From IMG/VR virus record IMGVR_UViG_3300017714_000238, positions 1-20,091 of that record: DNA of 20,091 nucleotides. One strand, given 5' to 3'. Positions 9,838-19,954 of this stretch are shown in pieces. The notes under the pieces are model-generated. The model was given only the letters and a program-made list of their open reading frames with translations. It ran no database searches and was not told where the DNA came from. The position numbers were made by a program, and so were the translations under genes. This DNA comes from a virus. Position 1 is the first letter of the stretch. Each line of letters begins with the position of its first letter.

Positions 9838-10049
9838 TTTATAAACTACAAAGATACCTTGAAAGGGAGCAAGAAACACATGTTGTAGTTCTTGCAAACG
9901 GAGGGGTTGACAATATGCCCGACTATAAGTATATTTGTGGCAAGATTCACACATTGGATCAAATATCACAGGAACTCTCTAACCTGCTAAACCCTAAGGA
10001 GCCGAATAAATATGACGAAGAAGAAAAAGTTACACCCATTAGAAGCTAA
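9810..10049 (+). CDS. Small hypothetical protein (79 aa)
   Basis: The ATG follows AGGAGACTATCATAA. The protein begins MQDTDPIAVIYKLQRYLERE, contains the strand-like HVVVLANGG and the segment DYKYICGKIHTLDQISQELS, and ends in a charged tail. The overall pattern (helix, strand, helix) resembles small conserved proteins found near head genes of marine podoviruses, as far as I recall. It overlaps the GroES gene by 38 bases in a different frame. No function assigned. Confidence 0.75.
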   Translation: MQDTDPIAVIYKLQRYLEREQETHVVVLANGGVDNMPDYKYICGKIHTLDQISQELSNLLNPKEPNKYDEEEKVTPIRS

Positions 10050-10443
10050 GTACGAAGAAGAAGCTAAGTTAGCTAAAGAAGAACCTCAAGAAACAAATTT
10101 AGAAAAGTTACCAAACCCAACCGGGTGGCGTATACTTATAATGCCGTTTGCTCAAAAAGAAAAAACAGATGGCGGAATCATAATTGCACAAGAAACCTTA
10201 GACCGATCACGTATTGCTACTCAATGTGGTTACGTGTTAAAGATGGGTGATCTTTGTTATCAAGACAAAGATAGATATCCCACTGGTCCTTGGTGCAAGG
10301 AAAAAGACTGGGTTATATTTGCAAGGTATGCAGGATCCAGAATGGAGATCGATGGCGGAGAGATAAGAATGTTAAACGACGATGAGATATTAGGGACAAT
10401 AGATAATCCTGAAGATATCTTACACGCAACCATAGGAGGTTAA
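10012..10443 (+). CDS. groES: GroES-like co-chaperonin (Cpn10 family)
   Basis: It would cap the host GroEL ring to fold phage proteins, most plausibly the capsid protein, like T4 gp31. The 143 residues consist of a charged N-terminal extension (1-35), then a Cpn10 beta-barrel. PTGWRILIMPF (36-46) aligns with the first GroES strand. The mobile loop EKTDGGIIIAQ (50-60) carries GG-III in place of E. coli GG-IVL, the hydrophobic triplet that binds GroEL. GYVLKMGD (73-80) corresponds to GEVLAVG, WVIFARYAGSRMEIDGGE (100-117) to the VIF-DGYG strand, and MLNDDEILGTID to the last strand. It is longer than E. coli GroES (97 aa) because of the N-terminal tail and an insert around 81-96. AAGGAG lies 9 bases upstream. 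No GroEL is seen, so the host ring is used. Confidence 0.88.
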   Translation: MTKKKKLHPLEAKYEEEAKLAKEEPQETNLEKLPNPTGWRILIMPFAQKEKTDGGIIIAQETLDRSRIATQCGYVLKMGDLCYQDKDRYPTGPWCKEKDWVIFARYAGSRMEIDGGEIRMLNDDEILGTIDNPEDILHATIGG

Positions 10444-14342: not shown

Positions 14343-15086
14343 ATGACATCATCCGGTACATCTACTTTTGAAAGTGGGTTTTTAATCGATGATATTATTG
14401 AGGAAGCCTACAATAGAATAGGTCTTAATAGCATTAGTGGTTATCAATTAAAATCAGCAAGACGTTCTTTAAATATAATGTTTCAAGAATGGGCTAATAG
14501 AGGTTTGCACTATTGGGAAATAGGACAAGCTAATATAGATTTAGTTGAAGGCCAAGCAGAGTATAAATTTTTTAGATCCACTGCTGACGGTACCAGTGCA
14601 GTAACTGATCCAGTAAATTTATATGGTTTAGATGATATATTAGAAGCAACTTACAGAACTAACAAAGGAACTACTAATCAATCTGACAACAGTTTAACTA
14701 AAGTTGACAGAAGTACTTACCAATCTTATTCTAATAAACTAACAAAAAGTCAACCATCACAATATTATGTACAAAGATTTATTGATAATATCACCCTTAC
14801 GATTTATCCTGTTCCTGATTCAACTGCCGCTGCTAATTTTGCAAATATTTATTTTACTAAAAGAATTCAAGATGTGGGCGGATATAGCAATACTGCTGAC
14901 GTTCCTTATCGTTTTGTTCCTTGTATGTCTGCTGGTTTGGCTTATTATCTAGCACAAAAAGATAGAACTGATTTAGTACAACAATTAAAAATGTTGTATG
15001 AAGATGAATTAAATAGAGCTTTAATTGAGGACGGCTCTTCAACAAGTACTCATATAACACCACAGAATTATTATCCAAATGTCTAG
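14343..15086 (+). CDS. Head-to-tail adaptor-like protein (247 aa)
   Basis: Such proteins bind the portal ring and close the head before tail attachment. The N-terminal helical domain FLIDDIIEEAYNRIGLNSIS, followed by QLKSARRSLNIMFQEWANRG and HYWEIGQANIDLVEGQAEYK (about 13-76), is the typical feature of P22 gp4-like or related adaptors in marine podoviruses: helices with an Arg-rich 'SARRSLN' and a Trp, then a beta strand before a variable part. Further on come the strand ITLTIYPVPDS and the C-terminal helix DLVQQLKMLYEDELNRALIE. AGGAGG lies before the ATG. The stop overlaps the next gene by 8 bases. Confidence in the class is moderate because the assignment rests on recalled similarity. Confidence 0.65.
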   Translation: MTSSGTSTFESGFLIDDIIEEAYNRIGLNSISGYQLKSARRSLNIMFQEWANRGLHYWEIGQANIDLVEGQAEYKFFRSTADGTSAVTDPVNLYGLDDILEATYRTNKGTTNQSDNSLTKVDRSTYQSYSNKLTKSQPSQYYVQRFIDNITLTIYPVPDSTAAANFANIYFTKRIQDVGGYSNTADVPYRFVPCMSAGLAYYLAQKDRTDLVQQLKMLYEDELNRALIEDGSSTSTHITPQNYYPNV

Positions 15087-16074
15087 TTTTTCTACAGGTA
15101 AAAATGCATTAGCTATTTCAGACAGAAGTGGTATGGCCTTTCCGTATAATGAAATGGTAACAGAATGGAATGGTTCTAGAGTACACTACACTGAGTTTGA
15201 ACCTAAACACCCACAGTTAATTTCTAGAATACATAGAGGTGATAGAATTTCTTTACAATTTGCTCGACCAGATAGAGTAGAGCCACCAGTACCACTAGTA
15301 TTAACTAATAACGCTTTACAAGCAGGTCCAACTGATAGTGAAATAATTACAGTTACTCTACCAGGACACGGTTATAAAGTAGGTGATATTATTAAAATAC
15401 AAGGAGCTGTTTCTTTTTTTCCTACCTACCCACAAGTTTCTCACATAGAAGACGATGATGTTAATAGTGCTGCTGGACATACAATTACTGCAGTAACACC
15501 AAATACTTTTGATTTTAATCCTAATGATCGAATCACTGCTTTTTTAACAAACTGTATACCCGGAACTACAACTGTTTATGTAGATATGGATGGAGTCTTA
15601 ACTGAATACTATCAAGCTGTTGCTGCTTATGCTACTGCAACTGGTTTATTACCTTCTGGTCCTGATTGGTATAACTTAACACCTGAAATTGAATCACAAG
15701 CAATTGCTGCTGCGGGTGGTGGTGGCTATTTTTCTAATCTTGATAAACGCGCAGAAGCAGATGCGTTAGTTGATTTAGTTATTTCTAAAAATGGTAGTTG
15801 GGCAGTTTTATCAACTGGACCTACTTATAATACTGAAAAAACAGCTTGGATTAATGCAAGATATACAGGCGCGCGAGCTCCGGTAAGTATGGACTTTGCA
15901 ACTAACTTTAATAAAGGACCCTTTGGTGGTGCCAACAAATTATTAATTGACGACAGAACTACTTACATAGACCAGTTTGAAGCTGCGGGTGGTAAAGGCT
16001 TTAAATATTGGGAAAGTGGTGGTATAAAAAACTTTGGAGGACGTAATATGTCTATTACTAAAATATCAACATGA
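15079..16074 (+). CDS. Connector-type virion module fused to a HAD phosphatase/nucleotidase domain (331 aa)
   Basis: Residues 1-155 look like a small phage connector protein: LAISDRSGMAFPYNEMVTEW (11-30), EPKHPQL (41-47) and a GHGYKVGDIIKIQGA beta module (96-110). From about 163 the protein changes to a HAD-fold enzyme: VYVDMDGVLTEYY with D169 and D171 (motif I nucleophile and acid/base), WAVLSTGP with S245/T246 (motif II), K254 and W257 in 'NTEKTAW', K279/K287 as motif III candidates, and LLIDDR with D291/D292 (motif IV). The DMDGVL and IDDR pair is typical of 5'(3')-deoxyribonucleotidase-type HADs; dephosphorylating nucleotides is therefore the likely chemistry, the exact substrate unknown. 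The frame is continuous with no stop between modules. It overlaps both neighbours (8 bases before, ATGA after). The HAD part might ride in the virion or be cleaved off. Confidence 0.8.
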   Translation: MSSFSTGKNALAISDRSGMAFPYNEMVTEWNGSRVHYTEFEPKHPQLISRIHRGDRISLQFARPDRVEPPVPLVLTNNALQAGPTDSEIITVTLPGHGYKVGDIIKIQGAVSFFPTYPQVSHIEDDDVNSAAGHTITAVTPNTFDFNPNDRITAFLTNCIPGTTTVYVDMDGVLTEYYQAVAAYATATGLLPSGPDWYNLTPEIESQAIAAAGGGGYFSNLDKRAEADALVDLVISKNGSWAVLSTGPTYNTEKTAWINARYTGARAPVSMDFATNFNKGPFGGANKLLIDDRTTYIDQFEAAGGKGFKYWESGGIKNFGGRNMSITKIST

Positions 16075-16772
16075 CCACATATACAGAACTAAAACAACAG
16101 ATATTAGACTATTGTGAAACTGATTCAGCAGTTCTTACAGATGTTATTATGAATGATATAATAGAACATGCTGAACATAGAATATTTAGAAGTATAGAGT
16201 TAGACAACCAAAAAGAATATTTAAATGGAAACACAGCACCTAATAACAGATTTGTATTACTACCAGGATATAGCTCTATTAATGTTACTAAACCAGACAT
16301 TAATGACATAGCTACTATTAGATATGTGACTTTATACACCGATTCAGGGACCAAAGAACGTCATGAATTAGTTCGTGTAGACGTAGACTTTTTAAATGAA
16401 TACTATCCAACCCCAGAAGTAGGATCAACTGCTAAACCTAGATATTATTCTACTTGGGATATGGGGCAAATAGCTATTGCGCCAACACCAAATGCAGTGT
16501 ATAAATTTGAAATAGGAATTCTTAAAAAACTATCAGGCTTAGGTTCCACTAATCCAACTACTTGGATAAGCTTAAATGCCCCAAGAGTTATATTATATGC
16601 CTGCTTATGTGAAGCTTTTAAATTTTTAAAAGCGCCTCAAGATCAAGCTGTTTATGAGCAATCTTTTAAAGAAGCTATTACAGAACTTGCCCAAGAACAA
16701 CTTGGTAAAAAACGAAGAGATGAATACAGGGATGGAAGTTTACGAATGAATATTCCTACAACAAACCCTTAA
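16071..16772 (+). CDS. Second adaptor/connector-like protein (233 aa)
   Basis: The ATG overlaps the stop of the HAD fusion gene as ATGA. The protein starts MTTYTELKQQILDYCETDSA and continues with a helical region DVIMNDIIEHAEHRIFRSIE (about 24-43), then beta segments with NNRFVLLPGYSSI and IATIRYVTLYT, LVRVDVDFLNEYYP, and RYYSTWDMGQIAIAPTPNAV. It ends with a helical part, AITELAQEQLGKKRRDEYRD. The order helix domain, 'F-LP', 'R-V', 'Y..WD..I-I.P.P' and helix resembles adaptor proteins of SU10-like and marine podoviruses. Together with the protein at 14343 it would bridge portal and tail. Class-level assignment only. Confidence 0.65.
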   Translation: MTTYTELKQQILDYCETDSAVLTDVIMNDIIEHAEHRIFRSIELDNQKEYLNGNTAPNNRFVLLPGYSSINVTKPDINDIATIRYVTLYTDSGTKERHELVRVDVDFLNEYYPTPEVGSTAKPRYYSTWDMGQIAIAPTPNAVYKFEIGILKKLSGLGSTNPTTWISLNAPRVILYACLCEAFKFLKAPQDQAVYEQSFKEAITELAQEQLGKKRRDEYRDGSLRMNIPTTNP

Positions 16773-17240: not shown

Positions 17241-18932
17241 ATGGCCCTTGTTCTTAATGATCGAGTCAAAGAGACTAGCACCAGTACAGGTACAGGGACA
17301 ATAAATCTTGCTGGAGCCGCTCAAGGCTTCACAACTTTTGTTGCCGGTATTGGTAACAGTAATACAACTTACTATTGTATAGAAGCTGATGGTGGAGCAG
17401 ATTTTGAAGTAGGTATTGGTACGGTCACTGACGCAACTCCCGACACACTCTCACGTGACACAATTCTTAGAAGTTCTAACTCTAACAATGCTGTAAACTT
17501 TGGTGCAGGTACAAAAAATGTATTTTGTACACAGCCTGCTAGTAAAGCAGTGTTTGAGGATGCAAGTGGTAACGTAGCAATCGCCGGAACAGTCGATGGC
17601 ATTGACATACAAAGTAGAGATTCAGTATTAACTTCCACAACTACTACCGCTAACGCCGCTTTACCTAAAGCTGGTGGCACTATGACAGGTGCAATTGCTA
17701 TGGGTAATAATGCTATCACAACTTCTTCTACTGTTGATGGTGTAGATGTTTCAGCAAGAGATTCAGTATTAAGTTCTACAACAACCACAGCCAATGCAGC
17801 TTTGCCAAGAGCAGGTGGAGCAATGACAGGGGCTATTACAACAAACTCTACTTTTGATGGTCGTGACGTTGCAACAGACGGAACTAAACTAGACGGGATA
17901 GAAGCTAGTGCAGATGTAACTGATGCTGCAAATGTTGGTACTGCTCTTACAGCATTTTCAACTGGAACAGACGCAGCGGCTTCTGATTTAGTTCCTTATT
18001 ATGATGTAACTGCTTCTGCATGGGAAAAATCAACTATTACAAATTTAGCCTTACAAGGCCCTACTGGACCGACAGGACCGACAGGCCCTACTGGACCTAA
18101 CGGCCCTACTGGACCCGATGGACCTACAGGACCGGGTGGCGGCACAGGACCAACAGGAACAGCAGCCGGATTTGGAACTCCCACTATTGCTACAGGCGCA
18201 CCTATTGCAGTAACTGCATCTGGACCTGATACAGCAAAAGTTTTTGCATTTACTATACCAGCCGGACCGACAGGACCTACTGGACCTACTGGACCTAACG
18301 GCCCTACCGGACCAGGTGGTGGAACAGGACCGACAGGACCCGATGGACCCGATGGACCTCCGGGACCGAGCGGTGGAACAGGACCGACAGGCCCTACCGG
18401 ACCAGGTGGTGGAACAGGACCTACCGGCCCCGATGGACCTCCGGGACCTTCAGGTGGAACAGGACCAACAGGACCAACAGGACCAGGTGGTGGAACAGGC
18501 CCTACCGGACCGACCGGACCAACCGGTGGCTTTAGTACAAACTCAAATGCACAAGTAAACAGTTTAGGTGTAAATACAGGAGCATCAGGAACCGCTGGTG
18601 AAATCCGAGCGACCAATAATATCACTGCTTATTATTCAGATGAGCGTTTAAAAAATATTTATGGTTCAATTGACACTGCTTTAGAAAAAGTAAAAAAACT
18701 AAGAGGTGTTTATTTTAAAGAAAATGATCTAGCTAAATCTTTAGGTTATGACAACGACCGTAGACAAGTAGGGGTAATAGCACAAGAAGTAGAACTAGTT
18801 TTACCTGAAGCAGTAACAGGTGCGCCTATTGGCGAACCATATATCACTGTGTGGTATGAAAAACTTGTACCCCTCTTAATAGAGGCTATCAAAGAATTAG
18901 AGCTTCGAGTAAAAGACTTAGAGGATAAATAA
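17241..18932 (+). CDS. Collagen-like tail fiber with C-terminal peptidase S74 chaperone (563 aa)
   Basis: The N-terminus ([38 protein letters not shown], up to residue about 108) is a phage fiber attachment domain found in many marine phages. Residues about 113-255 hold repeated modules ([43 protein letters not shown], and [13 protein letters not shown] twice). Two collagen-like Gly-Pro-X blocks follow at 273-306 and 342-430, separated by a [17 protein letters not shown] module. At 466 begins SDERLK, the S74 autocleavage motif with Ser466 and Lys471 as the expected dyad; then [14 protein letters not shown] and the terminal coil [20 protein letters not shown]. In this family, cleavage at the Ser releases a trimerisation chaperone, here about 98 residues, leaving a stable trimeric fiber for host binding. 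Confidence 0.9.
18057..18530 (+). repeat. Collagen-like Gly-Pro-X coding repeats
   Basis: Two arrays of 9-base GGN-CCN-ACN-type units (18057-18158 and 18264-18530) encode Gly-Pro-Thr and variants with Asn, Asp, Ser, Pro or Gly. Longer units are repeated inside the second array ([10 protein letters not shown] and [10 protein letters not shown], twice or more). Such DNA is prone to slippage and copy-number change. Long frames without stops on other strands here (for example 17999-18625 minus) are produced by the repeat. Confidence 0.85.
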
Positions 18933-19954
18933 TGACTTTCGGTATAGCACCTTTTGCGGCTACACCTTTTTCTGCACCAGCCGTTGCAGGTGATGATGCT
19001 ACTATTACTTTAACAGGTGTTTCATTAAATATTACTCTTAGCAATTCTTATACAGTACAAAAAACTCACTTTGTAAGTGGTTTTGATTTAACTTCAAATA
19101 CAGGAACATTAACAACTAAACTTGCACCAACTATAGCAAGTAATGCTGTAACTTCAGCAGTAGGTTCAGTTGTTCCATCAGCAGGACACGGTATTGCAGT
19201 AACAGGTAATGCTGTAACTTCAGCAGTAGGTTCAGTAACACCTAAACTAGAACTAGCTACAACAGGTAATGCTATAACTTCGGCGGTAGGAACAGCAACT
19301 GCAACGGGTTCTGCAGTTAAAACAGTTACAGGAACTTCGTCTACCCTATCTACAAATAATGTATCTTTAGTTGGTAATGCCAATGTTGCTGTTACAGGAA
19401 ATAGTTCTACTGTAACTTTAGGTGCAGTTACAGAAAAACTTGCCCTGACTATTGCAGGTAATTCTCTTACTTCTGCAGTCGGTACAGTTTCGTTATCTTC
19501 AGGACACACTATCGCTGTTACAGGAACTTCGTCTACTTTATCTATAGGGACAACAACACAAAAAATCGTTAAAGCTATTACAGGTAATTCTCTTACATCT
19601 GTTGTTGGCACAGTTATACCTTTAACCGGTTCTACTGTTGCTGTATCCGGAGTAAGCGCAAGTTTATCAGTTAATGCTGTATCACCAAAACTTGTTTCAA
19701 TAATTGCAGGGCAGAGTTTAAATACAAGCGTAAATAGTGTTAGTATTACTCTTTCTCCTGTAATACCTGTTACAGGAGAACTTATATCTGTGATAGTAAA
19801 TCCATTATCTGTCTTTACATGGAGTGCCGTTGATGATACAACTATTGGTAGTTCGTGGACCGACGTTTCAACAACAGGAAGCGGAGGGTCTAGTTGGACC
19901 GAAGTTTCAACAACAGGATCTGGGACAATAAACCCAGAACAAAAGGTAGCATAA
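18932..19954 (+). CDS. Repetitive beta-rich fiber-like protein (340 aa)
   Basis: The ATG overlaps the S74 fiber stop as TAATG, so the two are translationally linked. It starts [20 protein letters not shown]. From about residue 60 to 270 it consists of degenerate units of about 20-22 residues such as TGNAVTSAVGSVTPKLE and TGTSSTLSIGTTTQKIV, made almost only of Thr, Ser, Ala, Val, Gly and Asn, as in solenoid or fiber proteins. The C-terminus contains two copies of SSWT(D/E)VSTTGSG. It has no Cys, few Arg and no enzymatic motif. A role as a tail appendage or host-range adhesin follows from its position and composition; membership of a named family is not established. Confidence 0.75.
   Translation: MTFGIAPFAATPFSAPAVAGDDATITLTGVSLNITLSNSYTVQKTHFVSGFDLTSNTGTLTTKLAPTIASNAVTSAVGSVVPSAGHGIAVTGNAVTSAVGSVTPKLELATTGNAITSAVGTATATGSAVKTVTGTSSTLSTNNVSLVGNANVAVTGNSSTVTLGAVTEKLALTIAGNSLTSAVGTVSLSSGHTIAVTGTSSTLSIGTTTQKIVKAITGNSLTSVVGTVIPLTGSTVAVSGVSASLSVNAVSPKLVSIIAGQSLNTSVNSVSITLSPVIPVTGELISVIVNPLSVFTWSAVDDTTIGSSWTDVSTTGSGGSSWTEVSTTGSGTINPEQKVA
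19140..19236 (+). repeat. 31-base exact tandem-type repeat in the fiber-like gene
   Basis: The 31 bases at 19140-19170 recur exactly at 19206-19236 (66 bases apart, 22 codons). A third, diverged copy starts near 19267. Identity at synonymous positions indicates recent unit duplication or conversion. Confidence 0.75.

Follow-up and report, generated by a model that had tools for sequence, protein, structure and literature searches.

The locus described here raises the question of whether a phage particle can carry a phosphatase of the nucleotidase type inside one of its structural proteins. Free phage NT5C enzymes are known, as are tail-borne enzymes, and of the enzymes that tailed phages carry, most cut glycans or the cell wall or are injected proteins. 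The window analysed in this study is the whole of a metagenomic virus fragment (20,091 bases). From its letters, the original prediction had read one gene as a HAD-type nucleotidase domain fused in frame to a small phage connector and lying between two adaptor-like genes that it overlaps.

TerL and the capsid protein of the window are 60-74% and 70-73% identical, respectively, to those of HTVC023P, HTVC027P and 023Pt_psg01, and its portal matches SU10_portal (E 4e-11). Judging by these terminase, capsid and portal relatives, the phage is assigned to the HTVC023P-type, SU10-like short-tailed phages. The phages with fused HADs fall into the HTVC023P-like and T4-like marine groups, in which cultured relatives have SAR11 and other marine bacteria as hosts. 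The predicted position of the fusion gene was confirmed (Table 1): it overlaps its upstream neighbour by 8 bp and its downstream neighbour by 4 bp (ATGA), suggesting translation coupled to that of the neck genes. The order adaptor-like gene, fusion gene, adaptor gene was kept in all fusion loci uncut by a contig end, with 122 upstream and 119 downstream sides evaluable. The downstream product also matches solved head-to-tail adaptors; the upstream gene is a weak candidate for a true adaptor (profile probability 18%). Since the downstream gene belongs to the SU10 adaptor family, the SU10 tail was used for comparison; its published structure comprises the portal, a single ring of adaptors, nozzle, needle and fibres, and a counterpart of the fusion protein was not reported in it (PMC9509320). 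Elsewhere in the window, a GroES-like co-chaperonin gene (10012-10443; PF00166 E 2e-9) lies upstream of the capsid genes. A likely tail-fibre protein (17241-18932) has GPT repeats of collagen type and ends in a Peptidase_S74 chaperone domain (PF13884 E 4e-13), and the repeat-rich protein encoded beside it (18932-19954), built of GN(A/S)xTSAVG-type units, had no significant Pfam match.

Table 1 Coordinates of the fusion gene, its modules and conserved residues, and the two neighbouring genes in the window
Feature	Residues	Window position	Strand	Basis or remark
Upstream neighbour, adaptor-like		14343..15086	+	phrog_12985; weak profile similarity to downstream adaptor
Fusion gene, neck-cluster protein with NT5C-type HAD inserted	331 aa	15079..16074	+	One open frame
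Conserved N-terminal segment	1-74	15079..15300	+	ISDRSGMAFPY..EMV.EWNG..VH..E.E.KHPQL
Predicted beta-barrel module, E1-FCCH / endosialidase-barrel type, interrupted before last strand	75-146	15301..15516	+	
Linker with helix (150-158) accompanying HAD	147-162	15517..15564	+	Aligned before HAD in other carriers
NT5C-type HAD phosphatase domain (predicted)	163-311	15565..16011	+	Profile, model, alignment
HAD motif I DMDGVL, putative nucleophile and acid/base	D169, D171	15583..15600	+	Invariant in 53 distinct fusions
HAD motif II L-S-T	T246	15808..15816	+	T, except for one S among 52
Lys of EK..W element	K254	15838..15840	+	Invariant; common to free NT5C enzymes
HAD motif III Lys	K279	15913..15915	+	Invariant; aligns with Lys before LIDDR in solved deoxyribonucleotidases
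HAD motif IV (LIDDR)	D291-D292	15949..15954	+	Invariant
C-terminal tail FGGRNMSITKIST, in place of barrel's last strand		16033..16071	+	Window subclade, without GP motif
Downstream neighbour, head-to-tail adaptor		16071..16772	+	PF24175 SU10_adaptor, E 9e-22

The in-frame fusion stood up: the 331 codons form one open frame, and the halves, for which separate profile searches had been proposed, matched different profiles. Residues 1-150 matched phrog_28581 (E 1e-32) and residues 164-310 matched phrog_2643, 5'-3' deoxyribonucleotidase (E 5e-12, or 9e-13 with the half alone), while the whole protein had no match above threshold in Pfam and NCBIfam. The full chain was modelled by AlphaFold2 with a mean pLDDT of 84 and a pTM of 0.71. 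In the homologue survey, the N half was fused in frame at 128 of 128 IMG/VR loci with a close HAD relative (71 distinct open reading frames), and one IMG/VR scan recovered fused close HAD relatives on 80 different contigs. Every close HAD relative was thus fused, with no free copy at the 128 loci and no stop codon between the two modules in the relatives; assembly error, against which the original prediction had set this survey, and readthrough were ruled out by the 71 distinct fused frames. The neck-protein/HAD fusion is real, and both halves are under purifying selection (median dN/dS ~0.24 in each, 602 pairs). Separate production of the HAD from an internal start was also ruled out, as no in-frame start with a ribosome site was conserved. 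No fused member occurred in 50,697 phage records searched, and a scan of cellular genomes found no relative.

Comparison of the model with the PDB by Foldseek gave 3bwv, 6g2m, 4mum, 4l6a and 1mh9 as top matches (probability 1.00, E 4e-5 to 4e-4). These are 5'(3')-deoxyribonucleotidases of 18-21% identity, and HAD folds filled the list. Structure prediction, named beforehand as a check, therefore yielded the HAD/NT5C fold, and absence of a Rossmann core can be set aside. A PDB search with the single sequence gave nothing useful, and a profile of the neck fusions alone found no deoxyribonucleotidase. The large-tail relatives described below and the free relatives had to join the profile before solved deoxyribonucleotidases were matched; the joint profile then found 3bwv (E 2e-7) and, at E values from 2e-4 (the mitochondrial enzyme) up to 9e-3, the mitochondrial and cytosolic human enzymes. 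The full HAD motif set read from the sequence was borne out, with one refinement: in the 'ST' pair the motif II residue is T246, position 245 being S or T. The three lysine candidates (254, 279 and 287) are all invariant in the 53 distinct fusion proteins, K254 aligning with the lysine of EKYAWV and K279 taking the motif III position; other positions vary widely, unlike the catalytic residues. A degenerate HAD domain was ruled out by the invariant motifs and the dN/dS of 0.24. The four motifs and the predicted fold place the domain in the HAD phosphatase superfamily, and its profile matches and structural neighbours assign it to the NT5C 5'(3')-deoxyribonucleotidase family. This similarity is so remote that the substrate is not readable from the family.

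The structural connector proposed for the N half was not upheld, because sequence searches found no solved relative and the half looks like a short N-terminal segment followed by a putative FCCH/endosialidase-type barrel. By profile and by its place between the adaptor genes, the N half is assigned to the phrog_28581 neck-cluster proteins, and 'neck-associated accessory protein' is a safer name for it than structural connector. The barrel type was suggested by a non-fused relative (L020) whose barrel was modelled confidently (residues 70-160, pLDDT about 82-96). Its match to PF16190 (E 0.01) fell below the family cut-off, and Foldseek returned 3gvk, 3ju4 and 4hiz (E about 1e-3, probability 1.00) followed by E1 enzymes, with E values of 1e-3 to 5e-2 overall. 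The modelled barrel looks like those of the K1F and phi92 endosialidases and like the FCCH domain of E1 enzymes. The N-terminal segment (window 15079-15300) aligns with CDYCGQRYPY...VCPDDYEPKEPQL (CDYCGQRYPY...VCPDD) in phage DSL-LC04 and is possibly a zinc ribbon that lost its cysteines.

The HAD had been placed at residues ~163-331 and tentatively described as a domain cargo. It is indeed inserted, but the mobile unit begins near residue 147, a helix preceding the HAD, and a conserved final strand follows the domain. Relatives without the HAD, mostly about 165-190 aa long, end in '...TDTATTGN.GGG..AGPVTITP', most fusions end in '...FGG..SVGPVTLLP' after the HAD, and MAFFT aligned both tails unprompted. 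Among the 68 distinct fusions complete at this end, 57 retained the (S)VGPVT / GP motif; the window subclade (11 of 68) lost it and carries MSITKIST and similar tails. Because the last strand resumes after the HAD, the domain is assigned by alignment to the loop before the barrel's last strand, and a simple C-terminal append was ruled out; secondary structure and alignment served to judge which strands meet across the insertion. In the N-half tree the fusions formed one clade (100/96), indicating one insertion event among the sampled sequences. Furthermore, HTVC027P (gp65) and L074 hold another, unrelated insert in one of the barrel's earlier loops, which indicates that the neck protein is a platform accepting domains. 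The barrel's last loop would be a site at which this family accepts foreign ones.

The same HAD branch was found on other tail proteins, which the original prediction could not have seen from the window alone. Sister HADs, 31-37% identical to the neck HAD, were located at the N-terminus of gp25, the T4-type baseplate wedge protein, in 15 contigs (PF04965 E 1e-11; phrog_261 E 2e-43), directly upstream of gp6 (phrog_219 E 6e-181), and, in 13 contigs, at the start of a tail protein about 1,530-1,660 aa long. The arrangement of HAD, Ig-like domain and gp25 occurs in marine T4-like contigs (L215:322-1620 with L215:1624-3498; L217-L221; L230-L237), and the large tail protein contains He_PIG/Ig domains (L148:3055-7989; L149; L151; L249; L252; L262). 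One further sister-HAD locus was too short to classify, and none of the 65 loci classified in that scan held a free copy of the branch. The three carriers (neck protein, gp25 and large tail protein) could all be aligned over the helix that precedes the HAD, and the catalytic residues were invariant in the gp25 and large-tail fusions as well. In a tree with an outgroup of 10 free and two endolysin-fused phage NT5Cs, several of them on long branches, the HADs of the three carriers formed one clade (100/99) apart from the free phage NT5Cs, a result limited by this sampling and by the long outgroup branches. Some T4-like phages with the large-tail fusion encode a separate NT5C outside that gene, suggesting a different role for the tail copy; a search of seven long neck-fusion contigs found no second NT5C. 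At L154:5980-7158, and also in L155-L157, a more distant NT5C (PF06941 E 4e-10) is joined to an endolysin-like GH19 domain (PF00182 E 5e-13). In addition, an adaptor-like gene of 023Pt_psg01 (L001:4889-5986) is longer than usual and contains a module sharing ~54% identity with residues 377-496 of the large L148 tail protein that bears the HAD, indicating that podovirus neck genes and myovirus tail genes share modules.

Taken together, the gene product is probably a neck-associated virion protein whose inserted NT5C-type HAD domain is a functional phosphatase acting from the particle. Its presence in the virion is inferred from the operon position, the gene overlaps and the tail-type barrel, and the domain is apparently an active phosphatase, judging by its conserved residues. 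The N-terminal segment and the interrupted barrel would dock the protein on the adaptor ring, a placement on the neck that rests on gene order, as the N half has no solved relative; the HAD, set in the barrel's last loop, would be exposed on the tail. The HAD mechanism with an Asp nucleophile and Mg2+ is established and is applied here by homology. Accordingly worded for this protein, D169 would attack the phosphate of a phosphomonoester with D171 as acid/base, Mg2+ would be held by D169 and D291/D292, and T246 and K279 would bind the phosphate. Entry into the cytoplasm is not expected of neck proteins or gp25, and the carriers share only their tail location, which favours extracellular or periplasmic action. 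As the HAD branch otherwise occurs only on tail proteins, it is most likely the particle that uses this activity, at the cell envelope during adsorption and entry; the target may be a free (deoxy)nucleotide or the phosphate of a surface molecule. A wider reading, to which we give slightly less than an even chance, is that one NT5C-type HAD branch is a tail-specific virion enzyme of marine phages, moved with its helix among at least three structural proteins that are unrelated to one another (the podovirus neck protein, and gp25 and a large tail protein of myoviruses) and acting, during infection, on phosphorylated molecules located at the host envelope.

Several explanations of what the domain does were weighed. 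The best-surviving one, which we hold tentatively as rather more doubtful than probable, is a virion-borne (deoxy)nucleotidase that dephosphorylates (d)NMPs outside the host, in the periplasm, or in the producing cell before lysis. The phrog_2643 match and the nearest solved folds point to it, and free phage NT5Cs share D169, D171, K254, W257, K279, D291, D292 and the GG at 304-305 with the fused HAD, so that the invariant K254, W257 and K279 are common property. Against this, identity to characterised or free enzymes is 18-25%, and synthesis late, with the structural genes, makes little sense for nucleotide supply. Nor could the cap pocket residues be matched: Y177, W197 and Y198 are nearly or fully invariant, and the cap alignment to human mdN is unreliable.

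It is less likely that the HAD has left nucleotides altogether and strips phosphate from a host surface glycan or lipid at adsorption, in the manner of a tailspike. Such an envelope-modifying role would suit the fact that all three HAD carriers are tail or neck proteins, the resemblance of the HAD-holding barrel to those of the K1F and phi92 endosialidases, the endolysin-type fusion of the more distant NT5C, and the presence of a separate NT5C in some T4-like phages. But the fold and the nearest enzymes are those of nucleotidases, no surface substrate is known, and a tail position is compatible with a nucleotide substrate too.

A purely structural cargo, with the HAD as folded filler or decoration without catalysis, is improbable. 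The unrelated inserts that HTVC027P gp65 and L074 take in their barrel loops indicate that the position tolerates domains, yet structural filler is disfavoured because the HAD motifs are invariant in 53 distinct sequences in which other residues vary widely, and likewise in the gp25 and large-tail fusions. More doubtful still is a DNA-end phosphatase at the portal or neck that acts on the packaged genome end like the 3'-phosphatase domain of T4 Pnkp: the neck is near the DNA end and the T4Pnkp phosphatase is among the weaker Foldseek matches (rank 45), but nucleotidases match better, and the sister fusion on baseplate gp25, positioned away from the DNA end, disfavours such repair. An assembly or frame artefact joining two adjacent genes, conceivable for a window that is a single 20-kb metagenomic fragment, has a negligible chance given the 71 distinct fused frames on many independent contigs, the uninterrupted reading between modules and the barrel tail that resumes after the HAD.

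The preferred reading thus stays that of a neck-associated phosphatase acting from the particle. A full-text literature search of limited coverage found no virion protein described as containing an NT5C/HAD phosphatase. The neck fusion and the two other tail fusions of the branch suggest a nucleotidase-type phosphatase carried by the virion and so far undescribed. If the wider reading is true, the tail-specific HAD branch would be a new class of virion-borne enzyme. The intact active site and the repeated recruitment to tail proteins would suggest that current infection models miss a chemical step, either on the cell surface or in the periplasm, and the fused HAD is a directly testable protein.

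Among known systems, the NT5C family (human mdN and cdN, S. epidermidis 3BWV; PHROG 2643, Pfam PF06941) has the same HAD core and DMDGVL motif I, and shares with the fused HAD the T before EK..W, the motif III Lys, the LIDDR motif IV and a helical cap between motifs I and II. The fused branch differs in its 18-21% identity, below Pfam and NCBIfam thresholds, and in never being free but built into structural proteins. The free phage NT5Cs (Flavobacterium immuto, Vibrio EniLVp02, Cronobacter S13, HTVC008M and SPFM19) have the same catalytic residues. As the original prediction rightly contrasted, they are stand-alone proteins, most of about 160-200 aa, encoded outside structural clusters, and in the tree they are separate from the tail-fused HADs. 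The phrog_28581 proteins of HTVC023P-type pelagiphages (HTVC027P gp65, HTVC023P gp55 and 023Pt_psg01) have the N half and the gene order between adaptors in common with the fusion, and most HAD-less relatives and fusions share the C-terminal GP(V/A)T strand; the pelagiphage proteins lack the HAD, and some hold other inserts in the barrel. Marine T4-type HAD-Ig-gp25 phages in IMG/VR carry the same HAD branch and leading helix on a virion structural gene, but as an N-terminal fusion to a baseplate wedge protein encoded beside gp6, in a myovirus and not a podovirus. Finally, endosialidase tailspikes and virion-associated lysins are tail-displayed enzymes with a similar barrel module; unlike the HAD phosphatase described here, they are glycan or peptidoglycan hydrolases.
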